Shown one piece after another: positions 752 to 21,762 of a stretch of DNA of 22,298 nucleotides; position 1 is the stretch's first letter; the number at the start of each line of letters is the position of its first letter. Source of the stretch: Chromera velia (taxonomy: Eukaryota > Sar > Chromeraceae). The stretch is taken from contig JAHBMJ010001425.1 in NCBI GenBank assembly GCA_018398765.1, positions 1-22,298 on the forward strand. The letters are read 5' to 3'. The notes under the pieces were generated by a model. That model was given only the letters and a program-made list of their open reading frames with translations. It did not search any database and was not told where the DNA came from. Both the position numbers and the translations under genes were made by a program.

Positions 752-1251
752 CATGAATGAGTCTCGATCGAAAAACAGACCATGGAGGAAGAAAGGAAGG
801 TCCCAGAGAGAGTAGCCACGCACACCACCCGGAAGGAAAGAGAGGACTTAAAACAACCTGCCGGGGAAGAATTGGCAAGCAGAAAAAAGAGCCATAGGGG
901 TTGTTAAGGGGTGTTTGCACATCTCTGCCTGCTCCTGGATCCAACAAACAAAGACACTCGCCTCCTGATTGCGTACGATTGATTGTCGTATGTTCCGACT
1001 GCTTTGTTTTCTTTTCCACAATCATTGCCTCGAAATGGAGGTGGAAAGACAAAGAGACGCTCCAAAGAGAGAGGGGGGGACAGCAGGGCTGGACCGGTTC
1101 TTCTATTTGACTGACAGGAAGGGTGAGAAAGTTGATATGTGGGCTCCACCTGAAGTGAGGGAGCCTTCCTCAATCGAGCATCAAAACTGGAGGGGGGCTT
1201 CCGATAGTATGCGGATTAGTGTGCTGGGCTCAGGAACTAGGCATGTCACAG

Positions 1252-1450
1252 CAAAAAAAAAAAAAAGAAAAAAAGTCTCTATAGAAAAACGAGTTATCTA
1301 CTTTTTTCTTTCTTTTTTTTTTTTTTTGGCCTGCAACACCTTGCAACACTTGCGCAACACCCGTGCAACAGCTAAACAACAGTTGTTTTAGACAAAAAAA
1401 AAAGAAAGAAAAAAAAAAACCTGACAAAGAGAGTTATTTACTTTTTTTTT
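1252..1450. repeat. Paired A-tract/T-tract blocks around a phased GCAACAC cluster
   Basis: Two similar blocks, each an A-rich tract followed about 20 bases later by GAGTTATYTACTTTTTT, lie at about 1252-1330 and 1394-1450. Between them GCAACA(C) occurs at 1333, 1343, 1354 and 1365, spaced 10 or 11 bases. No coding potential is apparent. The block pair may be a degraded direct repeat; the function of the cluster is unknown. Confidence 0.5.
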
Positions 1451-1639
1451 CTGTGATACCCCTAGGCTTAGGAAGCCTGTGGGGGTGCATGTGGGTGCTG
1501 CTTGGTGGCACTTCGTGGGCATCTCTATGTTTTGTTGTCCCCGTCTAAGTGAAACCATTGGCCCTCTATATCAGATAGTCGGCTGGTCGTGATTGATTGA
1601 TTCGATATTCATCCATGGACCATGCTGGGTGACCACTGA

Positions 1640-2260
1640 CCTTGCATCTTCCTTTTTGGTCAAATTAATTAAACTCGTAATACACTTTAATTACCCTATA
1701 AAATTTCCTGTTGAAATCCTTGTTGTTTTACCTGTTACAGGTATTTTCACTACTTAGGGGAACAAAATTAATGCATAATTTTTTAAAAAAAAGCGAAGAT
1801 TTGAGTTTTTTAGAAAAAAGGGGCGGCTACATAGTGGCGTTAGCCGTAACTAATATAACTGTGTTACATATACATGGCCATATTATGTTTTATGTGGTGC
1901 GTAATATAAGTTGAAATGTAAATGTTATGGTTAAGGGCATAAATTATGCAAAGTTACTAGGCAAAGTTATCTTTAGGCAGGTAGGAAAGCACTTGAACAA
2001 CAAACGTTAACTATAAAGTTGCATCAACTGATTATAAACTGATTGATAACGATAATTTAAAAACACAGATTTGATGTAGCAATCGTTCTTCATATAATGT
2101 TTAAGTTTAACAGAGCCTCATCAATCGTTCTTACTGTAGCAATTAAGGGCTGATCGGGGCTGATTCGTTTCATTCGAAACTTAGACATTTACTGAAGTCG
2201 AGTGATAACAATGATAGCGGGCATTTTTAAGTTTTGTCATCAATCTGATTCAGTAGATCT
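1640..2260. other. AT-rich non-coding island
   Basis: Base composition becomes markedly AT-rich compared with the flanks. No long ORF is present. CAATCGTTCTT occurs twice (near 2080 and 2124), and a CGGCTA/TAGCCG hairpin lies near 1825-1850. I found no convincing terminal inverted repeat, so I do not call a transposon. From 2260 to 2606 the composition returns to normal and I see no gene. Confidence 0.5.
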
Positions 2261-2608
2261 CCAGACTGACGTAGTAGTCTCAATTTATCCTTCCTCTTCC
2301 CTTATTTTGAAGTCCTCCGCTCTCTCTGCTTCCTCCTCTCCCCCCTCTTGATAGCCCATATACAGCTCCTCTCCCCCCTCCTCTTCCTGGTTCTGGGGCC
2401 GGGAGAGCCCGGGATCTTTGGAGGTAGAGCTCTTCCAGGCCCGCTTCTCAAGCCAAGAAAGAAGGGATGGATTGGCTGGTAGCCAGGAGCTTGGCCACTT
2501 GATTATGTCAGTAAAGTTACTGCCGCGATCGACACCGTGACGCGTGCAATGAAGGCCATGCGTGGGGGATTATAGGCCTTAAAATCTTAAAATTACGTTT
2601 TTAACGTA

Positions 2609-2914
2609 TATCTATGAGGAATAACAAACTAAAATATCTGAGATATTTAAGGATATTTGTAATTATTTCTATCCCCCATTACTTCTATCTAAGTGTGACT
2701 CATACATAAGATAATGAAAGATAATGATAATGATAATTAAATTATTTAAAATAATTATTTGGTGAAAGATCATCAAATATCTTAAAATATCTTGAAATAT
2801 CATAAATATCCCTAAATATCTTCAAATATCTGGATATTTGGATATTTCATAATCAAATATCTTGGATATATGGATATTTCAGTCTAGATTTCAGTTTGTC
2901 ATTCCTCATAGATC
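2609..2914. mobile_element. MITE-like element with 27-bp terminal inverted repeats and TA flanks
   Basis: The left end (2609-2635) and the reverse complement of the right end (2888-2914) agree at 24 of 27 positions, sharing the core ATCTATGAGGAAT. A TA dinucleotide sits immediately outside each end (2607-2608 and 2915-2916), the target duplication typical of Tc1/mariner-type elements. The 306-bp interior is very AT-rich, has no ORF, and carries about a dozen AAATATC or GATATTT motifs in both orientations. Small size, terminal inverted repeats, TA flanks and absence of coding fit a non-autonomous miniature inverted-repeat element. The transposase family is inferred only from the TA. Confidence 0.75.
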
Positions 2915-2916
2915 TA

Positions 2917-3465
2917 AGAGAGAGGTTTTCCATCAGTATGCTCGATCTGCTATCAACGAAGCCTTCGTTTAGTCTCATCTTCCTGAGGTTTGTGTCTCGG
3001 GGAATACTAAATCTTCTGAGGCCGACAGAACCTCACACACAGCCTCGGCAGAGAGCCAATCACCACGGTGTTTTCCTCTTCCTCTGTACTTCCATCGCAA
3101 CAATCCACGTACACTAGTGGTCTGGCTTGATCTGGTTCTACCCTTCCTCGAAAAAATATTCTCTCTCTGTGGATCAGCATTCATGGTCTCTTTCCACAGG
3201 CAGTTATAATCTCTTCAAGCACAATACTTTCTCTCATGTGGCTTGCAAAGGAAGGACCAGATCAATCCATCAGACCAACTGTTCTATGGAAGCACCACAC
3301 TCAGTTTGAACAGGAAGAAATCTGTGACTCTGTCTGCCTTGGATTGAGCCGTCTGTTCGAACAAAGCTCTGCTATCCACCTGTAATATAATCAGTAGTCT
3401 AGCGGTAACAGAGCTCATATTCCAAGGAATAAAAGTAATGACACGAAGAAGGAGTGAACGGTTGG
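2917..3465. other. Intergenic stretch without a recognisable gene
   Basis: Short ORFs occur on both strands, but none has a recognisable domain or a convincing splice context. No repeat structure was seen. Confidence 0.4.
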
Positions 3466-3711
3466 CGTAGCGTTGTGAAGGTCTGACAAGCAGTTATATC
3501 AGGATGAAATGAAGTACGCGCGCATAATATATGTAGGGCGCATGCATACATGCATGCCGGGAATTAATTGTGCAGCATGCAGTCTCTATGAAGACATCCG
3601 TTGTTTGTCTTATAGAACAGAGATAGTAGAACTACCCATGTATGACAGAACCTTTATCCGTATGTAGGAGCTGATCTCAGCTACGACTAGCTGAGGGCCT
3701 ACATCCCTACG
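3466..3711. repeat. Dispersed repeat family 1, copy 1
   Basis: A 246-bp unit nearly identical to 8673-8917 in the same orientation, with a handful of substitutions such as TATATC versus TGTGTC. It begins CGTAGCGTTG and ends CCCTACG, so CGTAG/CTACG forms a very short terminal inversion. It contains a GCATGC-rich palindromic stretch and a CTCAGCT/AGCTGAG hairpin near the right end. No ORF or A-rich tail. A small non-autonomous element is the simplest reading; the family is not identified. Confidence 0.85.
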
Positions 3712-3925
3712 TGGCAGCGGAGCACACGATCCAGCCTCAGTGGGTTCGTGCGCTCTCTTCGGATTGATTGTTCGAACAGCCTTTCGCGCTGCAGTCGCAT
3801 TGCTTGTCGATTGAGCTTTGCACGTGGTCACTGTAGGAAGTCCAATTCAGTAGAAGCCACCTTTTTCAGAGCCCTTTGAATTTCTTTGTCAGTTGGCAGT
3901 CATGTCGGTAGTAGAACGGTAGTAG

Positions 3926-5002
3926 AATTTTGTGCTGTTGCTCGAGGCTCTTGACTGGTTCAAGAACATCCCCATCCTTCACGTGCAGAAGAACGGTCAA
4001 GCCCTCCTGGCAGATCTTCAAGGCAGAACACTCGCAGAGAATCTTGTGGAGGCTGCAGGTGGGTCTTCCACAGCCGCTCCTTCAGAAAAAAGGAATCCAC
4101 AGTCACCCTCAAGAAGATTCCTTGCCGATACAGAGGGAATTTTGAAGAAGTCGAAGACCCGAAGGAGTCAGAAGTTGACCGCTGGAGCCTGGGCCCGCAA
4201 ACAAGCAAACGGCTTATTAGGCGGCAGCACAAAGAAGCAGAAGACACCTTCAGGGGGAGGAGGGAGCAATAACAGTCCCCTGTCTGCGTCGCAAAGGTTG
4301 CAGATGAATGTGAAGAGAGAGAAGAGTCCCCACAGGAGAAGTGATTGGAGGCCCGTGAGGTCCGTCCCTGGTGTGCTAGTAGACCTGTCCACCCAGAAAG
4401 AGTCTGTTGAGAGAGAAGATAGAGGTCAGAGTACTTTCCTCCAGGTGACGTCCGAAGAAGCAGAAGAGAAGGAAAAAGACAGGGAGGGGCCGTCTTCTGA
4501 TGCTGGTCGACCGACTGACCAGGAAGACATTGACATGTACGACCCTAGCAGTGAAGAAACCCCGTCATTCAGTCCGGTCCAGCCCGTCCCAGTGATGGAA
4601 CCCATGCCGATGATGATTGGCAGAACTGAAGCAGGTGGAAAGGGGAAAGCCGAGAGAAGGAGAGAGAAACAACAGAGGAAGAGAGAGAGGCAAAAGGAGG
4701 TGAAGCACCATACAGAGATCAATACCATCTGGCAGGCTCGTGGGGATAGCCACCAGACAAATCTTGGTGCCTCCCTTCAAGGAGTAAGTGCAGAGGTGTA
4801 AGTAGAGAGACGGGATAGGGTTATAGTGCAGGAAGACCGAAAAAGAAGGAAAGAGGAGCGAAAGGAGTGGAAGAGGCAAGAGACTCAGAGAGCCGAAATC
4901 AACGCCCTCAAGCAGAGGCAGTCGTCGCTTCTTGGAAACCAAGCAAGAGCGACGGGGGAGAAAGAGCAGTGGGGGAGATTCAGCAGCAACTCTGTGCCCT
5001 AA
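3926..5002 (+). pseudogene. Charged ORF interrupted by an in-frame stop, unassigned
   Basis: The frame is open from just after a TAG near 3923 to TAA at 4799-4801. It has no ATG at its beginning: the first possible starts are GTG or CTG, near 3932. The predicted ~290-residue product starts with a compact segment (VLLLEALDWFKNIPILHVQK), then becomes low-complexity and rich in K, R, E, S and G, including a GGGG stretch. After the TAA the same frame is open for another 66 codons to a TAA at 5000, with similar charged composition. The motif 'charged run then EIN' occurs on both sides of the stop (HHTEINTIWQ and QRAEINALKQ), suggesting the stop interrupts one original frame. GTAAGT at 4798 resembles a donor, but the nearest acceptor would give a 34-base intron, far shorter than others here. 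No known domain recognised; it could be a decayed gene, a retroelement gag-like remnant, or one exon of a real gene. Confidence 0.4.
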
Positions 5003-6062: not shown

Positions 6063-6200
6063 TGTTGGCTGGACACCTCTGGTTACTCGTGGGAGTGGTT
6101 GCTTTGGTGCAAAGGAGTTGTACAACACCTAGAAGGGTTGCCGGACTGGTTTGGATCGCTCAATCAGGTCAGTTTATTTTGTGTCATTCCATCAGCAACA

Positions 6201-6425
6201 GGGGGGGGTGGACCCTCTCGTAGGGGTACGAAGCGGCGGAATTTCGTACCCCTGGTGGAGGGGGGGGGTCCGACTCCCTCTGCAGGTTTGCGTCCAAAAT
6301 GTGTCTAGGAAACACTCCTAGATACATTTTGGACGCAAACCTGCAGAGCAGGTCGGACCCCCCCCCTCCACCAAGGGTACGAAATTCCGCCGCTTCGTAC
6401 CCCTGCGAGAGGGTCCACCCCCCCC
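6201..6425. repeat. Large nested inverted repeat (foldback element), 110-bp arms
   Basis: Arms 6201-6310 and 6316-6425 are reverse complements at 104 of 110 positions without gaps, around a 5-base loop (AACAC). Each arm starts with a run of eight G or C. Inside each arm a second palindrome is present: in the left arm GGGGTACGAA (6223-6232) pairs with TTCGTACCCC (6243-6252). No clear target-site duplication flanks it. Transcribed RNA would form a nearly perfect long hairpin; as DNA it could extrude as a branched cruciform. No ORF of interest. Confidence 0.9.
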
Positions 6426-6789
6426 TCCTAGTGAGGGAATTGAAAAAATCTTGTTTGCAGAGATGAGCCTTCTTGGTGCATACAGAAAGCTTCATACGAT
6501 GTTTGTGAGTGTTTCTGTATGGCTGCAACCTGGCCATTATGGTTTTTGAATGACTGACCGGTCTGCCCTCGGCAAAGCACAAAACTGCCGTCTCCCTTTG
6601 CATGTGTTGTTCACCCCTGCCCCCCTCCTCTGCTCTTTGCAGGTCGTAGGTCTCCTCCAGGAGATGCTTGTTTTGTGTCCCCGTCCTTTTTCAACTCCTC
6701 CAGAGGTAGGTCTTTGCATTTTCGTTAAGGCCGCAGTCTTCAGACTGCGAAAGGGAGTAGCGCCCCTACGTGCCGAGCCTGTGTTTTTT
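6426..6789. other. Non-coding spacer between the foldback element and the 36-bp array
   Basis: No gene supported. Short ORFs on both strands lack recognisable domains. The right part becomes pyrimidine-rich and grades into the tandem array. Confidence 0.4.
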
Positions 6790-7545
6790 TCTACCTGCCT
6801 GACTGCCTCCGAAATTTCGCCCTTCTTGCCTGCATGACTGCCCTCTAGCTTTCGGCCTTTCTGTCTGGCTAAATGCCTTCCCAATTTCAGCCTTTCCGCC
6901 CGCCCTATTGCCTTCCTAATTTCGGCCTTTGCCGTGCTCCCAATTTTTGTCTTCCTGCCTGCTCGATTGCCTTCCTAATTTCGGCCTTCTTGCCGCCCTG
7001 ACTGCCTTCCAGAGTTTTGCATTCCTGCCATGCTGACTGCTTTCCCATTTTGGCCTTCTTACCTATCTGACTGCTCTCCAAATTTTGGTCTTTCTGTTTG
7101 CCTCAATGCTTTCCAAATTTCGGCCTTTCTATCTGCCTGACTGACTTTGCAATTTCGGCCTTCCTGCCTGTCCGGTTGCCTTCCCAATTTCGGCTTTCCT
7201 ACCTGCCTGATTGCCTTCCCTATTTTGGCCTTCCTTCTTGCCCAAGTTTCCTCCTAACGCTTCCTAATTTCGGTCATCCTGCTTGCCCGATGGCCTTCCC
7301 AATTTTGTTCTTCCTTCTGGCCCGACTGTCTTCCCAAGTTCGGCCTTCTTGTGTATCTGACTACCTCCCAGAGTTCGTTCTTTCTGCTTACATGCCTGCC
7401 TTCCAATTTCGGTCTTCTTGGCGGCCTGACTGCCTTTCAATTTCGGCCTTCCTGCCCGCCCTAGTGCCCACCTGATTGCCTTCCCGATTTCGGCCTTCCT
7501 GCCCGTCCGATTGCTTTCCCAATTTCAGTCTTCCTGCTTTCATGT
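6790..7545. repeat. Degenerate ~36-bp minisatellite, about 20 units
   Basis: A pyrimidine-rich unit of 34-36 bases recurs, with landmark AATTTCGGCCTTCCTGCC followed by a TGACTGCC-like segment. I count roughly 20-22 landmarks between about 6810 and 7535. Because the period is close to 12 codons, one frame stays open (7098-7475) as a 12-residue peptide repeat around PNFGLP. I treat that as a by-product of the repeat rather than a gene, since units vary in length and no start or splice signal stands out. Confidence 0.85.
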
Positions 7546-8672: not shown

Positions 8673-8917
8673 CGTAGCGTTGTGAAGGTCTGACAAGCAG
8701 TTGTGTCAGGATGAAATGAAGTATGCACACATAATATGCATAGGGCGCATGCATGCATGCATGCCGGGAATTAATTGTGCAGCATGCAGTCTCTATGAAG
8801 ACATCCGTTGTTTGTCTTATAGAACAGAGATAGCAGAACTACCCATGCATGACAGAACCTTTATCCGTATGTAGGAGCTGATCCCAGCTATGACTAGCTG
8901 AGGCCTACATCCCTACG
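8673..8917. repeat. Dispersed repeat family 1, copy 2
   Basis: Second copy of the 246-bp element at 3466-3711, same orientation, 245 bp. It shares CGTAGCGTTGTGAAGG at the left and ACATCCCTACG at the right. Differences are mainly transitions (for example CGCGCGCATA versus CACACATA), consistent with decay after dispersal. The flanks of the two copies are unrelated, which supports transposition rather than segmental duplication. Confidence 0.85.
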
Positions 8918-10315: not shown

Positions 10316-12592
10316 ATGGCCACCGACGCTTCAGCCGCAGGTTCGGTGTGGAACAAAAACAGTTGGCACTGGTGAGTCAAAAAGGTGTCTTCAGTCGTGT
10401 TCTTGGGCTGGTCCCGTCCGAGCTGTTCAATCTCTTGTGTGCCGTCGTTTTCCCCAGTTTCTTCTGATCTGCGCGTCCGTTTTGCTTAGCTTATTTCGAT
10501 ATGCGCGCGCCCTTCGCCTTGCTTGATTGATTTGTGTGGGATCTGTGGCTGTTTGTTTGCAGGGAGGAAAAGAACTACACCAAGTTGGCCATAAGCCTTC
10601 TGAATAGCCTCCTGGCAGACTTCACGATCACCGCTTCTGACGAAGAGCCCTCACTGAAGTTCTCCTTCAAAGACGTCGAGTAAGTCAGTGAGAGAGGAGA
10701 GAGACATGGCGCATCACGCACTTGCTTGTGTATTACGTCATCGACCGGAAGACTGACAAGGCCACGTTACATGTTTTTGTGCATCGAAACATTTCGTCGG
10801 AAGTCATTCGGAGACTTTGAACTGAACCTTTTGTGCAAGGTTGGAAGAATCTGTGAGTAGTCAAGTCGAATTGCATGAGAAGGATCCAACCTCTTACCTT
10901 TGTCTGTCCTGCAGAGCAAAAGGAGAGGCCTCGGTGTCGGTGCGCAAGGGCAAGCGTATCGTCGCATTTGAGTTCGCTGTCGGGATGCAGTGGGAGGCGC
11001 AGTCGGAGTCCTCCAACGAGACGGCTACCGGAAGGCTGAACATCGGAGACTTTGCAGTAGACTCAGTGGCCGATCAGGACTACGAAGTGTCTCTGACTCT
11101 CCTCTCAGGGGGGGCTCTCGGGGAGAGGGCAAAGGTGGGAGGGGGGGGAGGGAGGGCAAATAGAGATTGCTGACTCTCCTCCACTGTCTGTGCAATGATG
11201 CCTGCGTAGTCGTCCGCTAGTTGGAAGATTCTCTCATGCATTTGAAGATGGTCGTCCCCTAGTTGGAAGATTCTCTCATGCATTTGAAGATGGTCGTCCC
11301 CTAGTTGGAAGATTCTCTCATGCATTTGAAGATGGTGATCGATCCTGTGGTTATGTTTCCATGTCTGCTTGTTACAGTATTTATGTCTCCCTCCAGTTCA
11401 GAGTTTTGGGTGTGCGAAGGCAACCTTCCAACATTCCAATGGGAATGGATGCGACTCATCTCTCTTTCCGGGAGAATCATGTTTGTTTTTGTTCCTCTTT
11501 GTGCTGTTCAGGGCAACAGAAAAGAGAAAACAGGGAAAACTGACATTACTTACTCTCCTTTGTTTCGTCTCTTTTTCCGAGCACTTTTCATGCCTTCGTT
11601 CCAGCCTGTGCAGCAGCGACAGCGCTTTCTTCCTTCTTTTTCATTTCCCCTCTTCCCTTCTTTCTTTGCTCGTTTCTCCATGTGCTCCGGCCTCGGTTTT
11701 CGGTTCTTCTTCATTCTTTTGTTTCTTTCTCTCTCTATGTCTGCTTGAAGGAATTTCTCCGAAAGGAAGGCGTGAAGGCCATGAAGAAGCACCTGGCGTG
11801 CTTCACAGAAAAGCTCTCCAGCCAGGAAAGTGACCAAGGTGGGTCACTCAGTGAATTAGTGAAGTAAGAAAAGAGTCACTATGGAACTTCTCCCCCCTAC
11901 TCCTCCTACATACATGTCGTATCCTCTTGTTTTTGAATTGCCATGTATGTGATGTTGCTTCAAATTTGTTTTGCTGCATAATTGAACTTTTGCTTGGGGG
12001 TCAGTTTTTAAGCGCTTTTCCTGTTAGTCATCCACATGCTCCCTCCCTCCCTCCCTCCCTCCCTCTCGAGTCTCTCTCCTCTCGTATGCAGAGCGTCTCG
12101 CGGCTGACAAGAAGAGACGGGAGGAGGAGGCTGAGCGGATGAGGCGTGCGGAGGAAGAAAAGGGAGAGGAGAAGAAAAAGTTCCTGGAGGAGCAAAAACG
12201 GAAGGAACAGCAGAAGAGAGAAGCCGACGCAGAGATGATGAAGAGACAGATGGAGACGGCAGGGCAAGTGGCGGGCCAGGGCTCAGTGTGGAATGCGAAC
12301 AGCTATCATTGGGAGGAGAAGCCCCAAAGCACGTGGGCAAGAGAGAGACTCCTTCAAATAATCGAGAATGCAAAGGTATGGTCGTCTTCCGGACAGGCAG
12401 ATGCAAGAGTGTGATGTTTCTTTTCCTATGGAGAGAGAGAAATATCATGAGAGAGTGTTGCAGGTGATCCCTGAAACTTCTTGTGGAGAGACTACCTTCT
12501 TTCCTCGCCCCTGCCTGTTTCTTGGTCAGGCCTCTCTCTGTCTCTGTCTCTCTCTTTCTCTTTCTCTTTCTCTCTCTCTCTCTGTCTCTCTG

Positions 12593-12632
<40 letters not shown>

Positions 12633-13456
12633 CCGTTTCTCTCTTTTTTTGTTCTTTGGGTGTGTGCGTGTTTGCCCCTCGTCTTGCCTATTCGCACTCA
12701 CTCGTGCCTTCCCTTCCCTTGTCTTCTTTCAGTTGAGTTTGCAGCCCCCTTCTTCTCCTTCCTCTGCCGACTCTTCCTTTGAACTCTCCCTGCTGGGTCC
12801 TGTGAAAGTCGAGGGCGAGGCCTCCACATCCATCAGAAAAGGCAGGAAGATCTGTGTGTTCGACATGAAGGTCAGTCGGTCAACCAGTCAGTCACTCAGA
12901 TCGGTAGGTAGAGAGTCGCATAGGGTCGCGACCACACACACACACACACACACACACACGCGCGCGCGCACATACACGCACACACAGAGGGAGAGCAGTA
13001 TGTAAGCGTGTGTATTCTCCTCTGTGGTTTGTTTGTTTGTTCTTCTGGCTGGACGTCTGCAGGTCTCCTGTGGTTGGGCGATGTTTGAGAGGGATGGGAC
13101 GGGAATGGTCGTGAACGAGTGCAAGGGTTCTCTTGAAGTGAGTGAGTGAGTGAGTGGGCTCTTTGCATGTGTTGTGTGTCTTTCTTCTTCTTGTCGGGCT
13201 GGATGGCTGGCTGGCTGGCTGGCTCGTAACACTCTCTCTCTCGATCGATCGATCGATCGATTGATTGATTTGGGTTTTGTAGTCTCAATTTACGTTCTTT
13301 TCAAACTCATCTGTCCTCATTGAGCTTCACATTCCAGCTCCGCTTTGCTTCTTCGTTTTGTTCTCTTCCAGGGCAGTGATTCGGTCTCTGTTATTTTCTC
13401 CCTTTCGTTGTCTTCCTTTCGTCCTTCCTGGCCACTTCCTCTCTGTCGCTCTCTCT

Positions 13457-13501
<45 letters not shown>

Positions 13502-14368
13502 TGAAATCCTTTCTTGTACACGATCACAGCAATTCGGCGTCCCGGCCCTTAGCTGCTTTGTGACATACGTGCGTGTTCGAGCACATGATTGCGACGCAAA
13601 AGCATCTGCATGATATAAAACTTCGAAGCGACAAATACGTTTCCCTCACTGCAGCGTCAGGAGTAGTAAATGAGTGAGTGAGTGATGGAGGCAGAGTGAT
13701 AGAGACAGAGATTGGCGGGGGGGGGAAGACTGAAATTGAATGGATGAATAGTGGATGGATAGAAAGATGAGGTTGCATGCATGGAGGCATGCAGGTGGAG
13801 AACTTCACGTCAGAGGATGAGGAGGACGAGTGGGCAGTGAAGGCAATTCCAGACCCCCAGTTCGCCTCCCACAAACACGCAGAGCCTCTGATCGTCAGTA
13901 AGTGAAGGAGTGATGGAGACCCCAACGCATAGCTGCCGATTTCTGTTTTCGCGGTCACAAGTGTCTGTCGTCTTCTCCTTCCCACCGCGTGTATTCGAAT
14001 AGAAAGAATGCACTGCTGTCTGTTCCTTTGAAACCTTCAACGGAACATCAGGGGAGGATCTGTATGGAATGGACTGACTGTGCTGTCTCTTTCGTCTTGA
14101 AGGTGTTTCTCTTGTTCAGAAGTCTTTCCCTGAACTCAAAGGCTCTTTGTATGAATTTGTACCTTTGTTCTACTTGAATTATGATCTGTCAGTTAAGCTT
14201 TGTTTCCTTTCGTGCTGCATCGGGGGGGGTTTGAGGCATCTGCAGACTGGTTTTTGAGCTTAGAAGTGATTTTCTTTTTGCCTGCAGGCGATTCTGAAGA
14301 AGGCTGGAGTGAGTGCGATTCGCGGAAAGTTGAAGTCATTCGTGGAGGAGCTGAAGCAGAGGGGGTAG
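10316..14368 (+). CDS. Tandem Aha1 N-terminal-domain protein (Hsp90 ATPase activator-like), nine exons
   Basis: Predicted cytosolic Hsp90 co-chaperone of 385 residues. Exons: 10316-10371, 10563-10679, 10915-11134, 11751-11838, 12092-12375, 12733-12870, 13063-13137, 13795-13893, 14288-14368; every intron is GT-AG and the frame is continuous. Two Aha1 N-terminal domains are visible: residues ~9-155 and ~224-385. Both open with the family signature (VWNKNSWHWEEK; VWNANSYHWEEK), both carry GEAS followed by the conserved RKGK-type motif (RKGK 68-71; RKGR 290-293), and both end in an amphipathic helix (EFLRKEGVKAMKKHL; AILKKAGVSAIRGKL). In Aha1 this domain binds the Hsp90 middle domain and stimulates ATP hydrolysis. 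Residues ~161-217 form a strongly charged K/R/E linker, probably helical or coiled-coil. The Aha1 C-terminal (AHSA1/START-like) domain is absent. Domain 2 has a Ser/Pro insertion (~260-270). The start is the first ATG directly before domain 1. The last intron in each domain is phase 0 at the same structural position. Confidence 0.88.
11209..11334. repeat. Three tandem 42-bp units in intron 3
   Basis: Units 11209-11250, 11251-11292 and 11293-11334 are almost identical, with one clear difference (CCGCTAG in unit 1 versus CCCCTAG). The unit contains TAGTTGGAAGATTCTCTCAT. The near-identity indicates recent expansion. Because 42 is a multiple of three, the minus strand stays open across it as a 14-residue repeat (MHERIFQL...), which I regard as incidental. 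Confidence 0.95.
12041..12064. repeat. CCCT microsatellite in intron 4
   Basis: Six tandem CCCT units form part of the pyrimidine tract that precedes the acceptor at 12091 of the Aha1-like gene. Confidence 0.9.
12530..12626. repeat. CT-rich tract followed by GT microsatellite in intron 5
   Basis: About 60 bases of CT and CTTT repeats lead into a GT run of roughly 16 units (12594-12626). The whole lies within intron 5 (12376-12732). Confidence 0.9.
12932..12970. repeat. CA then CG dinucleotide repeat in intron 6
   Basis: About 13 CA units (12933-12959) pass into a short CGCGCGCG stretch, an alternating purine-pyrimidine tract with Z-DNA potential. It lies within intron 6 (12871-13062). Confidence 0.9.
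13138..13270. repeat. Cluster of tetranucleotide repeats at the 5' end of intron 7
   Basis: GTGA units start exactly at the donor (13138-13157). TGGC units follow at 13205-13224, then GATC units grading into GATT units (13241-13269). Three different 4-base repeats within 130 bases. Confidence 0.85.
13461..13498. repeat. GT microsatellite in intron 7
   Basis: About 19 uninterrupted GT units inside intron 7 (13138-13794). The opposite strand reads as a Thr-His repeat in short ORFs, which are artefacts. Confidence 0.95.
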
Positions 14369-14555: not shown

Positions 14556-14872
14556 TGTGCGTACAAGGCTAAGTAATCATGAGGCTAGCAGTGTGGTGGG
14601 CTAGACAGAGATCTTCTTGATCAGCCGTTCATAGAGGGAGTTTCATCTTAGAGTTCTGACAACAACCACTCATGCCAATCATCCAGCGCTTCTACTGCCT
14701 TCCAGGCGCTCTCTTGCTTGGCTACAGAACGCATGCCTCACTGAAAGTATCGTTTAGTGCACAGACGCACGCGCTCATCGATCCTGCGCCCTACTCCGTG
14801 CGAATAGCCTGTCGAACGACTAAGTACCATGACAGCCTCGTGGCGGCGCCACGTACAAGCCCTACATCTGCC
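14556..14872. repeat. Dispersed repeat family 2, copy 1
   Basis: A ~317-bp unit repeated in the same orientation at 18388-18717. Both begin TGTGCGTACAAGGCTAAGTA and end CCCTACATCTGCC. Conserved blocks include GATCAGCCGTTCATAGAGGG and GTTCTGACAACAACCACTCA. Copy 1 differs by substitutions and small indels. No ORF with recognisable content. Probably a small interspersed element; family unknown. It starts about 190 bases beyond the stop of the Aha1-like gene. Confidence 0.85.
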
Positions 14873-15959
14873 CGCTCGCCGAGGCCGACGTCCATGCTCG
14901 GCTCACACTTTCTTTCTTTTCCTCTCACCATCCATATTCCATCCCCACATCTGCCCACTCGCTCGGTGGGTTGGATAAGTAAAATAAATCCACCAAATCT
15001 TAATTCTTTCCTTTTCTCAATTAAGAATTTTTAATTAAGACAGCGTGATCGCATGATAACGATAAAATGGTCGTAATAACGTTGAGCTTCAGTCTTGGAT
15101 CGCTGAATAAAACTGCAGTCGACCTCCGAAACAGACGTATGGCATTGTAGCTCAGTACACCCTCTTACATACACTGGCTGGAGACCCTGAGCGCTCAATT
15201 CCCAGTCGACTGTTCAGGGTACACGCTGGCTTCCAGTTTTGAAGGACCGCAATGCCTCCCATCTCCAGCGCACAACACACTCAGTGTGTTATCCACATTA
15301 CCCTCCTAGGTTACCCTCTCTACACTTCTAGTTTATCTTCTCACCTCAGGCCCCCCGCTGCGCCAAGGCTGAAATCGCACATAGCCTCCTTATGGATGTG
15401 CAACTCTGTGCTTTTTCACACATTCTTGACAGTCGGAAGCAAAAATCTCAGCCCTCTGTGAGCGGTGCCATGGCAATGATCTGCATGGGCGCCAGAGGGT
15501 TCAGACACTGCGACGCATAGTCGGAATAAGACGAGTACGACCACACACCCACAAATATGGCCACAAACAACCGGGTTTTCTCTTTCTTCTTTCGATGGAA
15601 AGTCGACGGTTTCATGCGAAGTCAACACTGTGACACTGCTCAGAACTCCTAATCGCTAAGATGTGCTTTCAGAGTTCACAGCATGATTGATTTTGATTGA
15701 TTGATGCCAAACCCTAGGTGGAGTTAGAACTCCCGGGCGGCGCATACATGCATGGGTCTATTCAATTATGCCAGCTGCAAGCTAAGTGGACGACAGTTAT
15801 TCGAACTTAATCTAATCAATCATTTACTACAATATGGCAAGAAATGATAAAGAGGAGAGAGGGTTGAGAGCGCAAGAGCGATGTGATGAACTTGCGAACC
15901 CCCAGATCAGAAAAGGAGGCGGATGCAAAAGGTGGGTCACAACGAGTGAAGCGGTCTGA
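14873..15959. other. Intergenic region with a tRNA A-box-like segment
   Basis: No protein gene supported. At about 15137-15190 the segment GGCATTGTAGCTCAGTACA resembles the start of a tRNA with its A box, but the D arm cannot close with a normal loop and there is no proper T arm, so it is at most a SINE relic. An AT-rich stretch with CTTAATT/AATTAAG hairpin lies near 14995-15040. Confidence 0.35.
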
Positions 15960-16682
15960 TTAAATTAATGCCAACCACTGCAAAAAGCCTTGTTCAGCAG
16001 TCCATTGGGGGCAGACAGAGAGCCGATGAATAAAATCATCTACACACCGGTAGCAGGCTTCATAGGTGCACAGCTTTCTATTAGAGCAACCAACAGGCAG
16101 CCCACCTTGCCCGCCCATCGGGTTATATGTCAGCATGCGCAAAAAAGAAAAGATTGAGCTATCCGTAACCGACAGGGCAGAACGGGGAAGGGCAGAGACA
16201 GAAGGAACACCGGAGGATGACTTGCTGCACAGGAGGAAGACAAACATACGGCGGGAGGACGGGAAGTCGCGCTGCAGAGGGGTGAGTCTAGTAAGGAGGG
16301 GAAAGTGAGAGGAAGATTGCCCATCATCCTCAGAAGCCTTCATGCATTCCTTTGCAACTGTCTGTCTCACCTTGCCTTTGAAGAAAAGTGAGCCGGTGCC
16401 TTGTACCTTACGACCATTCTGCCCGCATTGGGAAGAGAGATCGGGCTCGACCCTCAGTGAGCGGACAGAAATCAAATCAGCCCAACGAAGCCGTCTATCT
16501 ATAGATCTTGTGAATTGTTGGCAGCAGTTATTCTTCCAGGCATGCAACATGGCTGCAGGAATAGTGTATGTTGTGATGGAAAGAGAGTGCCACCAGTCAG
16601 CCACGCGGGAGCAGAGAAGGGCTTTGCAAGGAAGAAGACCAAGGATGCAAAGAGAGGGTAGGCAGAAGCTGCGAGCAGACAA
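15960..16682 (-). pseudogene. Unassigned 240-codon ORF, possible retroelement remnant
   Basis: The minus strand is open for 240 codons from 16682 to a stop at 15960. The first codon of the open stretch is TTG, so a true start or an upstream exon is uncertain. Near the C-terminus the residues C210, C213, H219 and C224 (CYRCVDDFIHRLSVCPQW, encoded around 16011-16055) fit a CxxC-x5-H-x4-C-P pattern like the zinc-binding segment at the end of many non-LTR retrotransposon polymerases. Upstream there is no reverse-transcriptase motif, and no A-rich tail lies beyond the stop. The opposite strand also has a 114-codon ORF (16342-16686) that overlaps it. I infer a relic at best; chance cannot be excluded. 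Confidence 0.25.
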
Positions 16683-18387
16683 ATGACCACACCAACGGGC
16701 AAACCAAAGCTACAAAGCATCAAGAGCGAGCAGGTCTGTATCCCGTACTGGCAGATATTCAAGGCAGTAGAGCGCTACGGAGGTCCAGCAGGCTCTAAAG
16801 ACTGTTACCTGCACGTTAATGCTGAGCAGGCCCATGCTCGCAATCAATCCGATTACTCCCCAGAGCATATGGGGCATGGTTCGACGCGCAGTCGATACAC
16901 TTCCTGCATACTACTGGCTCGATATGAAGTCGACACTCTTACTCTTCTGTTTACTGTGTCAGCGTCATGCATGTGTGTGGATACTTGAGAGAGATTGATC
17001 GACCAAACAAGATGTTCTAACTTGATTAGATTAATTTGGTCACACAAACGGAAAGAAATAGAATCAAAAGTCAGTCAGATTTGGGTGTACAGTTCCTTTT
17101 CAAACAAAACCGTACAGCTATGATTGCTCCTTCTCCTGTGGATGAACAGAGAGAAAGCAAAGATAACAGATGTAGCTGTAAGACAGACAGCCAAAGAAGC
17201 AACACACTCGCATTCACCCTACACACATCCCGGCCAAAGTCATCAGCCCCCAGGCGGCCGTTCCCAAGCACTGAAAACATACAGCCTCTCCTTTTCCTGC
17301 CCTATTATCATTCCCTCACGCAGTCACTTCTCTTCTTCTCTTCATTGTCTCTTCTTTTTTGTGTTTGTATCTTTTTTTTTCAGCAATCCCCTCTCACCAC
17401 AACAAACCCTCAGTCTCCTCACCTCCAACTTCCTTTCCCTCCTCTCCTTCCTTTTTTTCTCTTTCCTTCCCAACTGTCTTAGCCCCTATGACCCATTCCT
17501 ATCATGAAGACACAATACAGTTAAGATGTACAGAGAGATCTAGAGAGAGATACAGTCAGATATAGCAGCCACCAGACCCATACCGACTTCAACATACTCT
17601 CTCTCACTTCATCACCTCCCTTCCTTCCTCCCCCCCAAACAAATTTTTTAACGTTCAACCCACAACCAAAAGAAAACAATCCAGGAGTTCACTAACATGG
17701 AGATATGTAGCAGCCGCGGTGCCCCCATAGCACTACTGAGCATTTGGAAACGCGGCATACCTAGTTGCGAGTGAAGACAAAGATCACACACCTCCAGTCA
17801 CCACAACCAAACCTGTACTCCACAAGATGCTCTTCTTCCTTCCATCCCAAACCTCTCACAGAGCAAAATAACCAAGAGCATCTTCTGCATCACCTGGGCG
17901 CGTTCCGTGTAGGCCTGAACACCTCGTGCTTCATTGCAGCACAATCAGCAGAGGCAGCAGTCAGTCAGACTGAGTCAGTCAGTTCAGTGACTTCAGTCAA
18001 TCAGACTGAATGGTCTCCCTCCTCAAGCTTGTCTTTGTGGACCCTCATCTCCAGCGGGCCTGCAACCTTGAGTTTCAAGAACTCTCTTAAGATAAAGAGA
18101 ACAGAAATTTAAGAAACACCGCGCTCCATGATATCTGGAAGAGAGTCTCAAATCCGCCATAAATTTTGATTCGAGAACAAACAACACAAAAGAGACGAAA
18201 TTTTTTTTCTTTTAACGAGTTTTTCTACTAACAAGCTGGCACTACACTTTTGTTAGTACAGACCTTACATATAGTGGAGAGAATTCTCTGTCCAGTCTGA
18301 CTGTTCATCAATACTACAAAGTTTACGATCTACACCACATCTGCCTCCCTGTGTTGCCAAACGCTCTGTTAATCAAACTGTAAGCTG
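16683..18387. other. Intergenic region, pyrimidine-rich in the middle
   Basis: No gene can be built with confidence. From about 17283 to 17480 the plus strand is mostly C and T, giving spurious Ser/Leu/Pro/Phe ORFs. From 17950 to 18010 CAGT and GACT motifs recur. On the minus strand 18085-18001 could be a terminal exon (see findings). From 18110 to 18300 the sequence is AT-rich. Confidence 0.4.
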
Positions 18388-18717
18388 TGTGCGTACAAGG
18401 CTAAGTAATCAATGATATGAGGCTAGCAGTATGGTAGGCTAGACAGAGATATAATTCTCGATCAGCCGTTCATAGAGGGAGTTCCATCTTAGAGTTCTGA
18501 CAACAACCACTCATACCAATCATCCAGCTTCTACTGCCTTCCAGGCGCTCTCTTGCTTGGCTACAGAGCGTATGCCTCACTGAAAGTATCGTTTAGTGCA
18601 CGCGTTCGATCATCAATCCCGCGCCCTACTCTATACAAGTAGTCCATCGAGCGACTAAGTACCATGACAGTCTCGTGGTGGCGCCACATACAGGCCCTAC
18701 ATTGCCCTACATCTGCC
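18388..18717. repeat. Dispersed repeat family 2, copy 2
   Basis: A 330-bp copy of the unit at 14556-14872, same orientation. Relative to copy 1 it carries small insertions (for example AATGATAT after AAGTAATC) and a short tandem duplication of CCCTACAT near its right end. Its flanks differ from those of copy 1. Confidence 0.85.
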
Positions 18718-20041: not shown

Positions 20042-21762
20042 CCTGCTATTTGCAGACCACGAAGCGCAAAGATGTCTCCCTCTGTACTCATTCCTGCTTA
20101 GACAGCAAAGAGAAAAGACCTCCCTGACTGTATTCATTCCTTCTTGCAAACACAGATCCATCCCTTTGCATCCCCTAAAGTTTCTTCCTGCACACAGTGA
20201 AGGGCAAAGATCCCTCTCAGCATCCCTGTAGGTTGTAATAGTTGCTTGCAGTGAGACGATGGCAAAGATCCTTCTCTTCATTCATTCCTTTTTACAGACA
20301 AGGAGAACACAGACCCGTCTCTCAGTATTTGTTTCTTTCTTGCAGACAGCGAAGGGCAAAGATCCCTTTCTGTATTCATTCCTCCTTACAGACAAGGAGA
20401 ACATAGACCCGTCTCTCAATATTCATTCCTTTCTTGCAGACAGTAAAGGGCAAAGATCCCTCTCTCAGCATTCATTCCTTCTTACAGAAAAGGAGAACAC
20501 AGATCTTTTTCAGCTTTTATTCCTTTCTTGTAGACAGCGAAGGGCAAAGATCCCTCTCTTTATTCATTCCTCTTTACAGACAAGGAGAACATAGATCCTT
20601 CTCAACATTCATTCTTTTCTTGCAGACAGCGAAGGGCAAAGATCCTTCTCTTCATTCCTTCTTCCTTACAAACAAGGAGAATACAGATCCCTCTCAGCAT
20701 TCATGACTTTCTTGCAGACAGCAAAGGGTAAAGATCCCTCTCTCAGCATTCATTCCTTCTTCCTTCACATAGTGAAGGGCAAGGCTCCATCCCTCTCGGC
20801 ATTCCTGCTTGCTTGCAGACAGCGAAGGGCAAAGATTCCTCTTTACATTCATTTCTTCTTACAGACAAGGAGAACACAGATCCCTCTCAGCATTTATTTT
20901 ACTTGCAGACAGTAAAGGGCAAAGATTCCTCTCTCAGCATTCATTCCTTCTTCTTTGATACAGTGAAGGGCAACAATCTCTTTTGGCATTCCTGCTTGCT
21001 TGCAGACAGTGAACAGTAAAGATCCTTCTCTGCATTCATTCCTCCTTACAGACAAGGAGAATACAGATCTCTCTCAGCATTCATTCCTTTCTTGCAGACA
21101 GTGAAGGGTAAAGATCCTTCTCTGCATTCATTCCTCGTTATAAATAAGGAGAACACATATCCCTCTCAACATTCATTTCTTTCTTGCAGACAATGAAGGG
21201 CAAAGATCCCTCTCTCAGCATTCATTCCTTCTTCTTTCACACAGTGAAGGGCAACGATCCCTCTCGGCATTCCTGCTTGCTTACAGACAGTGAAGGGCAA
21301 AGATCCTTCTCTCTGCGTTCATTCCTTTTTGCAGACAGCGAAGGGCAAAGATCCCTCTCTCAGCATTCATTTTGCTTGCAGACAGTGAAGAGCATAGATG
21401 CCTCTCTCTCCATTGAATTTCACTCCTTCTTGCGGATAGTAAAGGGCAAGGCTCCATCCCTTTGCATCCACTGAGATTCCTTCCGAAAGCGACAGATCCA
21501 TCCTTCTACATGCGTTCCAGCAAAGGTGCAGATCTCTCTCTCTCTGCAGTTATTCCTTAATTCCTGTAGAGAGAGAAGCGTACAGATCCCTCTCTCTGCA
21601 TTCATTCTTTTTTGTAGATAGGAAAGGGCAGAGATCCCTCTCTACATTGAATTTCATTCTCAGATTTATTCCGCCTCCGAGTCATAGAGAGAAGCGCACA
21701 GATCCCTCTCTCTTTGTTCATTCCTTCTTGCGGACAGGGAAGGGCAGAGATTCCTCTCTACA
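20042..21762. repeat. Long degenerate satellite: ~47-bp monomers in ~92-95-bp dimers
   Basis: The monomer core is GCAGACAGYGAAGGGCAAAG followed by ATCCCTCTCTCAGCATTCAT and a short T/C tract. It alternates with a variant containing AGACAAGGAGAACACAGATC. Core positions 20341, 20435, 20529, 20621, 20713, 20814, 20904, 21001, 21093, 21185 and 21282 give dimer spacings of 90-101, mostly 92-94. Near the right end (21282, 21330, 21377) the spacing drops to about 48, so monomers repeat directly there. The outer parts (20042-20340 and 21380-21762) are more diverged. Open frames across the array are repeat artefacts. Confidence 0.92.

Follow-up and report, generated by a model that had tools for sequence, protein, structure and literature searches.

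Contig C1423 of the Chromera velia genome, whose entire length of 22,298 bases forms the window analyzed here, carries on its plus strand a predicted coding region (positions 10316..14368) for a protein with two N-terminal domains of the Hsp90 activator Aha1 arranged in tandem. Exon borders were set by visual inspection, guided by GT/AG sites and by similarity to the domains, and the resulting frame was verified by a script. The model comprises nine exons with 1158 coding bases in an uninterrupted frame, all eight introns are of the GT-AG type, and an in-frame stop is located 63 codons upstream of the ATG. The encoded chain of 385 residues has the length given in a preliminary description of this DNA. 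Where translation starts, where the introns are cut and whether the two halves form one gene are all predicted from the DNA.

The presence of two Aha1 N-domains in this predicted chain, which the preliminary description had also claimed, is beyond reasonable doubt. In a Pfam search the Aha1_N family (PF09229) matched twice, with 156.6 bits in total. When the halves were scored apart, the first reached 85.1 bits (E = 6.7e-24) and the second 76.2 bits (E = 3.7e-21) at a cut-off of 23.6. The C-domain family AHSA1 (PF08327) was not found in the chain by Pfam, and the search thus returned the two Aha1_N matches without AHSA1 that had been expected beforehand. The only other families up to E = 1, Caldesmon (0.049) and Oxysterol_BP (0.069), were below the cut-off and overlap the charged linker between the domains. 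Searched against the Protein Data Bank (E up to 1), the chain matched 19 distinct solved sequences, six of which are Aha1 (3n72, 1usv, 1usu, 7dmd, 6xlb and 7dme; E = 3.3e-11 to 1.1e-4, 3n72 being the best); the other 13, twelve Fyn SH3 sequences and one myosin VI, all had E values of at least 0.2. Domain 2 alone retrieved the same six Aha1 structures and a single chance match at E = 0.83. The two domains are identical to each other at 46 of 147 positions (31%; pairwise BLASTP E = 3e-14), and their identity to 3n72 is 30% for domain 1 and 28% for domain 2.

Exon 1 (10316-10371) carries the start codon together with the domain 1 motif NKNSWHW (residues 13-19), whose final Trp is completed only in exon 2. 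The domain 1 core is encoded by exon 2 (10563-10679) and exon 3 (10915-11134, with RKGK at 10943-10954); the Aha1_N match at residues 21-155 covers the part in these two exons, and a six-frame search matched 10913-11101 with 50.3 bits. According to the spliced model and the Pfam match, exon 4 (11751-11838) encodes the terminal helix of domain 1 and the first linker residues. Intron 4 (11839-12091, 253 bp) joins the two halves. Exon 5 (12092-12375) starts with the Glu-, Lys- and Arg-rich linker (12092-12279) and continues into domain 2, whose NANSYHW motif (12292-12312, residues 228-234) is apparent from the sequence and the alignment. Exon 6 (12733-12870, with RKGR at 12835-12846; six-frame match at 12802-12897, 27.9 bits) and exons 7 and 8 (13063-13137 and 13795-13893) provide further parts of domain 2, within the 76.2-bit match of the second half, and exon 9 (14288-14368) its terminal helix and the TAG stop codon. 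The least obvious border is the end of exon 8, where the donor gtcagt at 13894 holds the frame; a gtaagt donor four bases further on was ruled out because the frame breaks. The donor gtcagt is also used after exon 6 and in four of the seven introns modelled for a TPR-containing paralog described below. Inside intron 3, three copies of a 42-bp minisatellite are found at 11209-11336.

The introns in front of the terminal helices, after residue 131 in domain 1 and after residue 359 in domain 2, are both in phase 0. Of three ways of aligning the domains, one places them at the same position and two separate them by three columns. A homologous intron was discarded as proof of an internal duplication, and a shared terminal-helix intron in this predicted gene is suggestive only.

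Aligned with known Aha1 sequences, domain 1 shows the motifs NKNSWHW and RKGK, domain 2 NANSYHW and RKGR. The NxNNWHW motif is thus kept in relaxed form, with Ser instead of Asn as the fourth residue in both domains and Tyr instead of the first Trp in domain 2. RKxK is strictly kept by domain 1 only. The RKGR of domain 2, pointed out earlier as a possible sign of a changed role, is indeed present but represents one conservative substitution. In Aha1, the first motif is known to lie near the free N-terminus. That the second NxNxxHW motif is located inside the chain is a more informative difference than the RKGR. At the position of yeast Asp53 (yeast numbering counted by hand) both domains carry Glu, as does the human domain, which sets them apart from Hch1p-like proteins as characterized in PMC6426937; the tandem chain does share with those proteins the lack of a recognisable Aha1 C-domain. 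An AHSA1 domain C-terminal to the N-domain in one chain, as in canonical Aha1, is absent from it.

The two domains are separated by a linker of 67 residues (157-223), which is rich in Glu, Lys and Arg and hence charged as described before, but longer than the 57 or so residues first estimated. Its i+3/i+4 pairs comprise 39 of opposite and 11 of like charge, a difference of 28 that none of 20,000 shuffled linkers reached (mean 1.1, standard deviation 6.5). Hydrophobic residues occupy at most 4 of the 19-20 heptad a/d positions in any register, which points to an isolated helix and not to a coiled coil. An AlphaFold2 (AF2) single-sequence model of the exon-5 fragment alone consists of one helix at its residues 2-60 (about residues 163-221 of the chain), with block means of the predicted local distance difference test of 89-97 up to residue 50 and of 69 thereafter; since models of this kind are biased towards helix where a sequence is highly charged, this is support and not proof. 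If straight, a helix of 59 residues would measure about 88 Angstrom. The linker may therefore be a single, rigid alpha-helix holding the domains about this distance apart, a prediction which fits bivalent binding without showing it.

The genome (177.8 Mb in 4040 contigs) was searched with the Aha1_N family in six frames and with the whole chain. The family search gave three places, two exons of the tandem gene and one in a second gene. The whole-chain search (E up to 10) gave 27 matches, namely the nine exons of the tandem gene and 18 others with a best E value of 0.026. All but one of these 18 overlap the charged linker; the exception lies in a gene on contig C2090 (E = 2.5). Neither search found a second copy of the tandem gene in the genome. 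The C2090 gene (region 73500-83000, exons at 771-4887 therein) is the paralog mentioned above, for which an eight-exon model of 554 residues was obtained. It combines TPR repeats, closest to those of 2fbn ('70 kDa peptidylprolyl isomerase, putative'), with a C-terminal Aha1_N domain of 86.0 bits. This domain reads WNARGTTF and VRGTK at the motif positions and has thus lost both motifs, which makes their retention in both halves of the tandem protein more than simple inertia.

By its predicted domains, the paralog could possibly dock on Hsp90 through the TPR repeats without stimulating it. MEEVD is the docking motif for TPR domains. Two Hsp90 genes, on contigs C3862 and C2506, are identical in their last 65 residues and both end in MEEVD, by which mark they are cytosolic. 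Further HSP90-family loci are present on C3798, C375 and C1945.

The preliminary description had noted the missing C-terminal domain. This is correct for the 385-residue chain but not for the organism, in which a C-domain gene is located on contig C3838. Six-frame searches of the genome with PF08327 (E up to 10) yielded no candidate. The human C-domain, whose sequence was confirmed against 1x53, gave two genomic matches at E = 1.4 and 4.7, and inspection of their reading frames by eye revealed no C-domain gene. In the Protein Data Bank, the human query matches 3ni8, the 'PFC0360w protein', at residues 24-155 of a 158-residue chain. The best of four genomic matches to the 3ni8 sequence covers 27 residues at 52% identity on C3838 (E = 0.33). 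A model joined by script from five exons at this locus (14198-14308, 14929-14994, 15443-15477, 16101-16222 and 17378-17466) encodes 140 residues with an AHSA1 match of 68.5 bits. The product is identical to PFC0360w (3ni8), its closest solved relative, at 56 of 132 positions (42%; E = 8e-34) and to the human C-domain at 44 of 139 (32%), and it ends in GYPKRK where 3ni8 ends in GYPKKK. Provided that 3ni8 carries a tag of 18 residues, the end of which is seen in 3n72 and assumed for 3ni8, the native protein and the C3838 product share start and end and are both 140 residues long. An in-frame stop is found 25 codons upstream of the C3838 ATG; an acceptor-like AG directly precedes this ATG, making a further upstream exon possible in the model. 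The six-frame Aha1_N search gave no match on C3838.

Loss of the C-domain from the whole organism, which the PF08327 searches had at first suggested, was rejected once the 3ni8 query had hit what proved to be the final exon of a genuine AHSA1 gene. The PF08327 search probably missed this gene because its exons encode only about 12-41 residues each, and for the same reason family searches say less about other split domains, those of the window included. On the window contig itself, neither the human nor the 3ni8 C-domain query produced a match. Thus, judged from the two gene models, Aha1 is split in the Chromera velia genome into a tandem N-domain protein and a separate C-domain protein.

Outside the tandem gene, the window contains several repeats. 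About 250 bases past the stop codon begin three adjoining blocks (14614-14867) that recur at 18455-18702 with 96%, 97% and 82% identity. A direct repeat of 231 nt (3466-3696 and 8673-8903) is 94% identical, has a 62-codon open frame in both copies and is perhaps a dispersed element. An inverted repeat (6186-6310 / 6316-6440) has 125-nt arms, 91% complementary, around a 5-base spacer. Minisatellites are present at 6788-7544 (array of a 35-bp unit) and 20261-21407 (12 copies of a 92-bp unit). An open frame of 291 residues on the plus strand (3926-4801) appears to be coding by eye, but a Pfam search with E values up to 0.1 gave no match for it.

With Aha1/AHSA1 (yeast Aha1p, human AHSA1) the tandem protein has in common the PF09229 N-domain with the NxNxWHW and RKGK motifs and a comparable linker after the N-domain, of about 60 residues in Aha1 (PMC9138868). 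It differs in having two N-domains, in that the C-domain is encoded by another gene, and in that its linker is predicted to be helical whereas that of Aha1 is described as flexible (PMC9138868). With yeast Hch1 it shares the N-domain, the retained motifs and the absence of a C-domain from the same chain, but Hch1 has one N-domain and yeast also possesses an intact Aha1 with both N- and C-domain (PMC6426937). The contrast between Aha1 and Hch1 drawn in the preliminary description is valid as far as it goes, but it leaves out the closest known case, the split Aha1 apparently present in Plasmodium.

In Plasmodium falciparum, N- and C-domain apparently reside on separate genes, and 3ni8 and 3n72 are the closest solved relatives of the C3838 product and the tandem protein, respectively. 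We take 3n72 to be the N-domain of the P. falciparum Aha1 PFC0270w/PF3D7_0306200 and PFC0360w (3ni8) to be PF3D7_0308500, the PFC names presumably referring to P. falciparum chromosome 3. PF3D7_0306200 and PF3D7_0308500 are named as two Aha1 isoforms in PMC12570473. If PFC0360w is the second of these genes, this suggests that the two isoforms correspond to the N-terminal and the C-terminal half of an activator that has been split, since the 3ni8 sequence contains AHSA1 only.

By titles and the opening lines of abstracts, no description of a tandem Aha1 N-domain protein or of a split Aha1 was found in the open-access literature among the matches listed. Viral, bacterial and archaeal contig collections, which are uninformative on eukaryotes, contained no relative of the tandem protein or of a three-domain alignment among 19 pattern matches (viral, protein), 22 (viral, three-domain alignment) and 22 (bacterial and archaeal genomes, alignment). 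The tandem form may already be catalogued in eukaryote sequence databases. There is nearly an even chance that it is old and ordinary in alveolates, the Plasmodium Aha1 PF3D7_0306200 and its relatives being built alike and simply undescribed, which would be compatible with the mechanism proposed below. The best structural match of the chain (3n72, E = 3.3e-11), taken to be of Plasmodium origin, points in this direction, as do the separate C-domain gene shared with Plasmodium and the fact that the two domains resemble one another (31%) about as much as each resembles 3n72 (30% and 28%), as an old duplication would give. However, 3n72 is a fragment and does not show how long PF3D7_0306200 is or which domains it contains. 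The reviews also disagree on the Plasmodium genes: besides the pair in PMC12570473, PMC8616389 lists PF3D7_0306200 and PF3D7_1334200 and PMC9332011 only one Aha1, and two N-domains are not mentioned in the excerpts of any of the three.

The N-domain of yeast Aha1 attaches to the Hsp90 middle domain, where it remodels the catalytic loop, and the C-domain acts later (PMC9138868, PMC5018835). Two Aha1 molecules bind apo-Hsp90, and once the complex has closed, the NxNNWHW segment reaches across the dimer interface (PMC9138868). The N-domain stimulates weakly from either protomer and prepares the step of the C-domain (PMC5018835). The temperature-sensitive yeast strain Hsc82 S25P is rescued when Aha1 is overexpressed (PMC6426937). 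The tandem architecture, the motifs and the separate C-domain gene, all evident in predicted genes at the level of the DNA, lead us to propose, with about even confidence, that the tandem protein extends across the two middle domains within a single Hsp90 dimer while the C-domain protein acts in trans. If spliced in cells as modelled, the protein would consist of two Hch1-like N-domains kept apart by a long, charged and probably rigid alpha-helix. Domain 1, with its near-canonical motifs near the free N-terminus, would bind the middle domain of one protomer, remodel the catalytic loop and reach across the N-domain interface. Domain 2, with its internal motif, would dock on the partner protomer within that dimer and serve chiefly to anchor the protein or to offer the site used next. 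In metazoans, ATPase stimulation is inhibited by a peptide ahead of the NxNNWHW motif (PMC11316058). Domain 2 has the long helix at the corresponding place and, by analogy, more likely provides an anchor or a second site than the main stimulation. A single tandem polypeptide would thereby fill two N-domain sites that otherwise need two ordinary Aha1 molecules, and the separate C-domain protein would provide the final closing step in trans.

Several points weigh against this proposal. One Aha1 molecule is enough for full stimulation of an Hsp90 dimer (PMC5018835), so that there is no obvious need for a second N-domain on the dimer, and the closed cryo-EM complex shows only one Aha1 N-domain together with two C-domains (PMC9138868). 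The analysis of the tandem form covers a single species, the C-domain gene was reached through a weak match (E = 0.33), and both Aha1 genes are predicted models. The helix model is derived from a single sequence and covers one exon only, and a rod of about 88 Angstrom, a length calculated for a straight helix, may or may not fit on one Hsp90 dimer.

We consider it rather unlikely that the tandem protein instead bridges two Hsp90 dimers, or that domain 2 has a target of its own, be it a different Hsp90 isoform, a client or some further partner, with the two targets kept apart by the rigid helix. A rigid rod would favour bridging or spacing over wrapping one dimer, 101 of the 147 residues aligned between the domains are different, domain 2 carries its motif internally, and other HSP90-family loci are available on C3798, C375 and C1945; yet the two motifs through which ordinary Aha1 acts on cytosolic Hsp90 are both retained by domain 2 in relaxed form.

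Intron 4, which joins the two halves of the gene, was evaluated with splice-site matrices built from the 14 other introns of the tandem and TPR genes, intron 4 itself being excluded; these matrices are small and come from exons chosen by eye. Its donor scored 10.7 (others 6.7-12.5) and ranked second among 314 GT dinucleotides in the gene region, its acceptor scored 10.1 (others 6.7-18.7) and ranked tenth among 294 AG, and the next-best AG between 11839 and 12150 scored 2.2. The phase fits the frame. Retention of the intron leads to an in-frame stop and a single-domain product of 169 residues, by which an Hch1-like isoform is possible. It is improbable that the region harbours two adjacent genes, or is spliced alternatively, to give an Hch1-like protein that terminates within intron 4 and another protein that begins inside exon 5, for although the 169-residue retention product is sensible and exon 5 has in-frame methionine codons upstream of domain 2, both splice sites are among the best in the region with fitting phase and no comparable AG nearby, the charged helix starts at the intron 4 acceptor ahead of the first in-frame ATG of exon 5, and the size of 253 bp is typical of the other introns (191-657).

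In the Hsp90 field it is open how many Aha1 molecules act per dimer and whether N- and C-domain need to be tethered. A natural protein with two N-domains held at a distance, together with a C-domain acting in trans, would make both points testable by existing assays. Tentatively, and with less confidence than in the mechanism for one dimer, we suggest that this lineage, perhaps including all Plasmodium relatives, might use a two-protein Hsp90 accelerator, in which a rigid double-N ruler occupies both protomers of one dimer and a free C-domain protein triggers closure. If this is true, clamping of both protomers and triggering would be separately controlled, and the two Plasmodium 'Aha1 isoforms' named in PMC12570473 would each represent half of a single activator.

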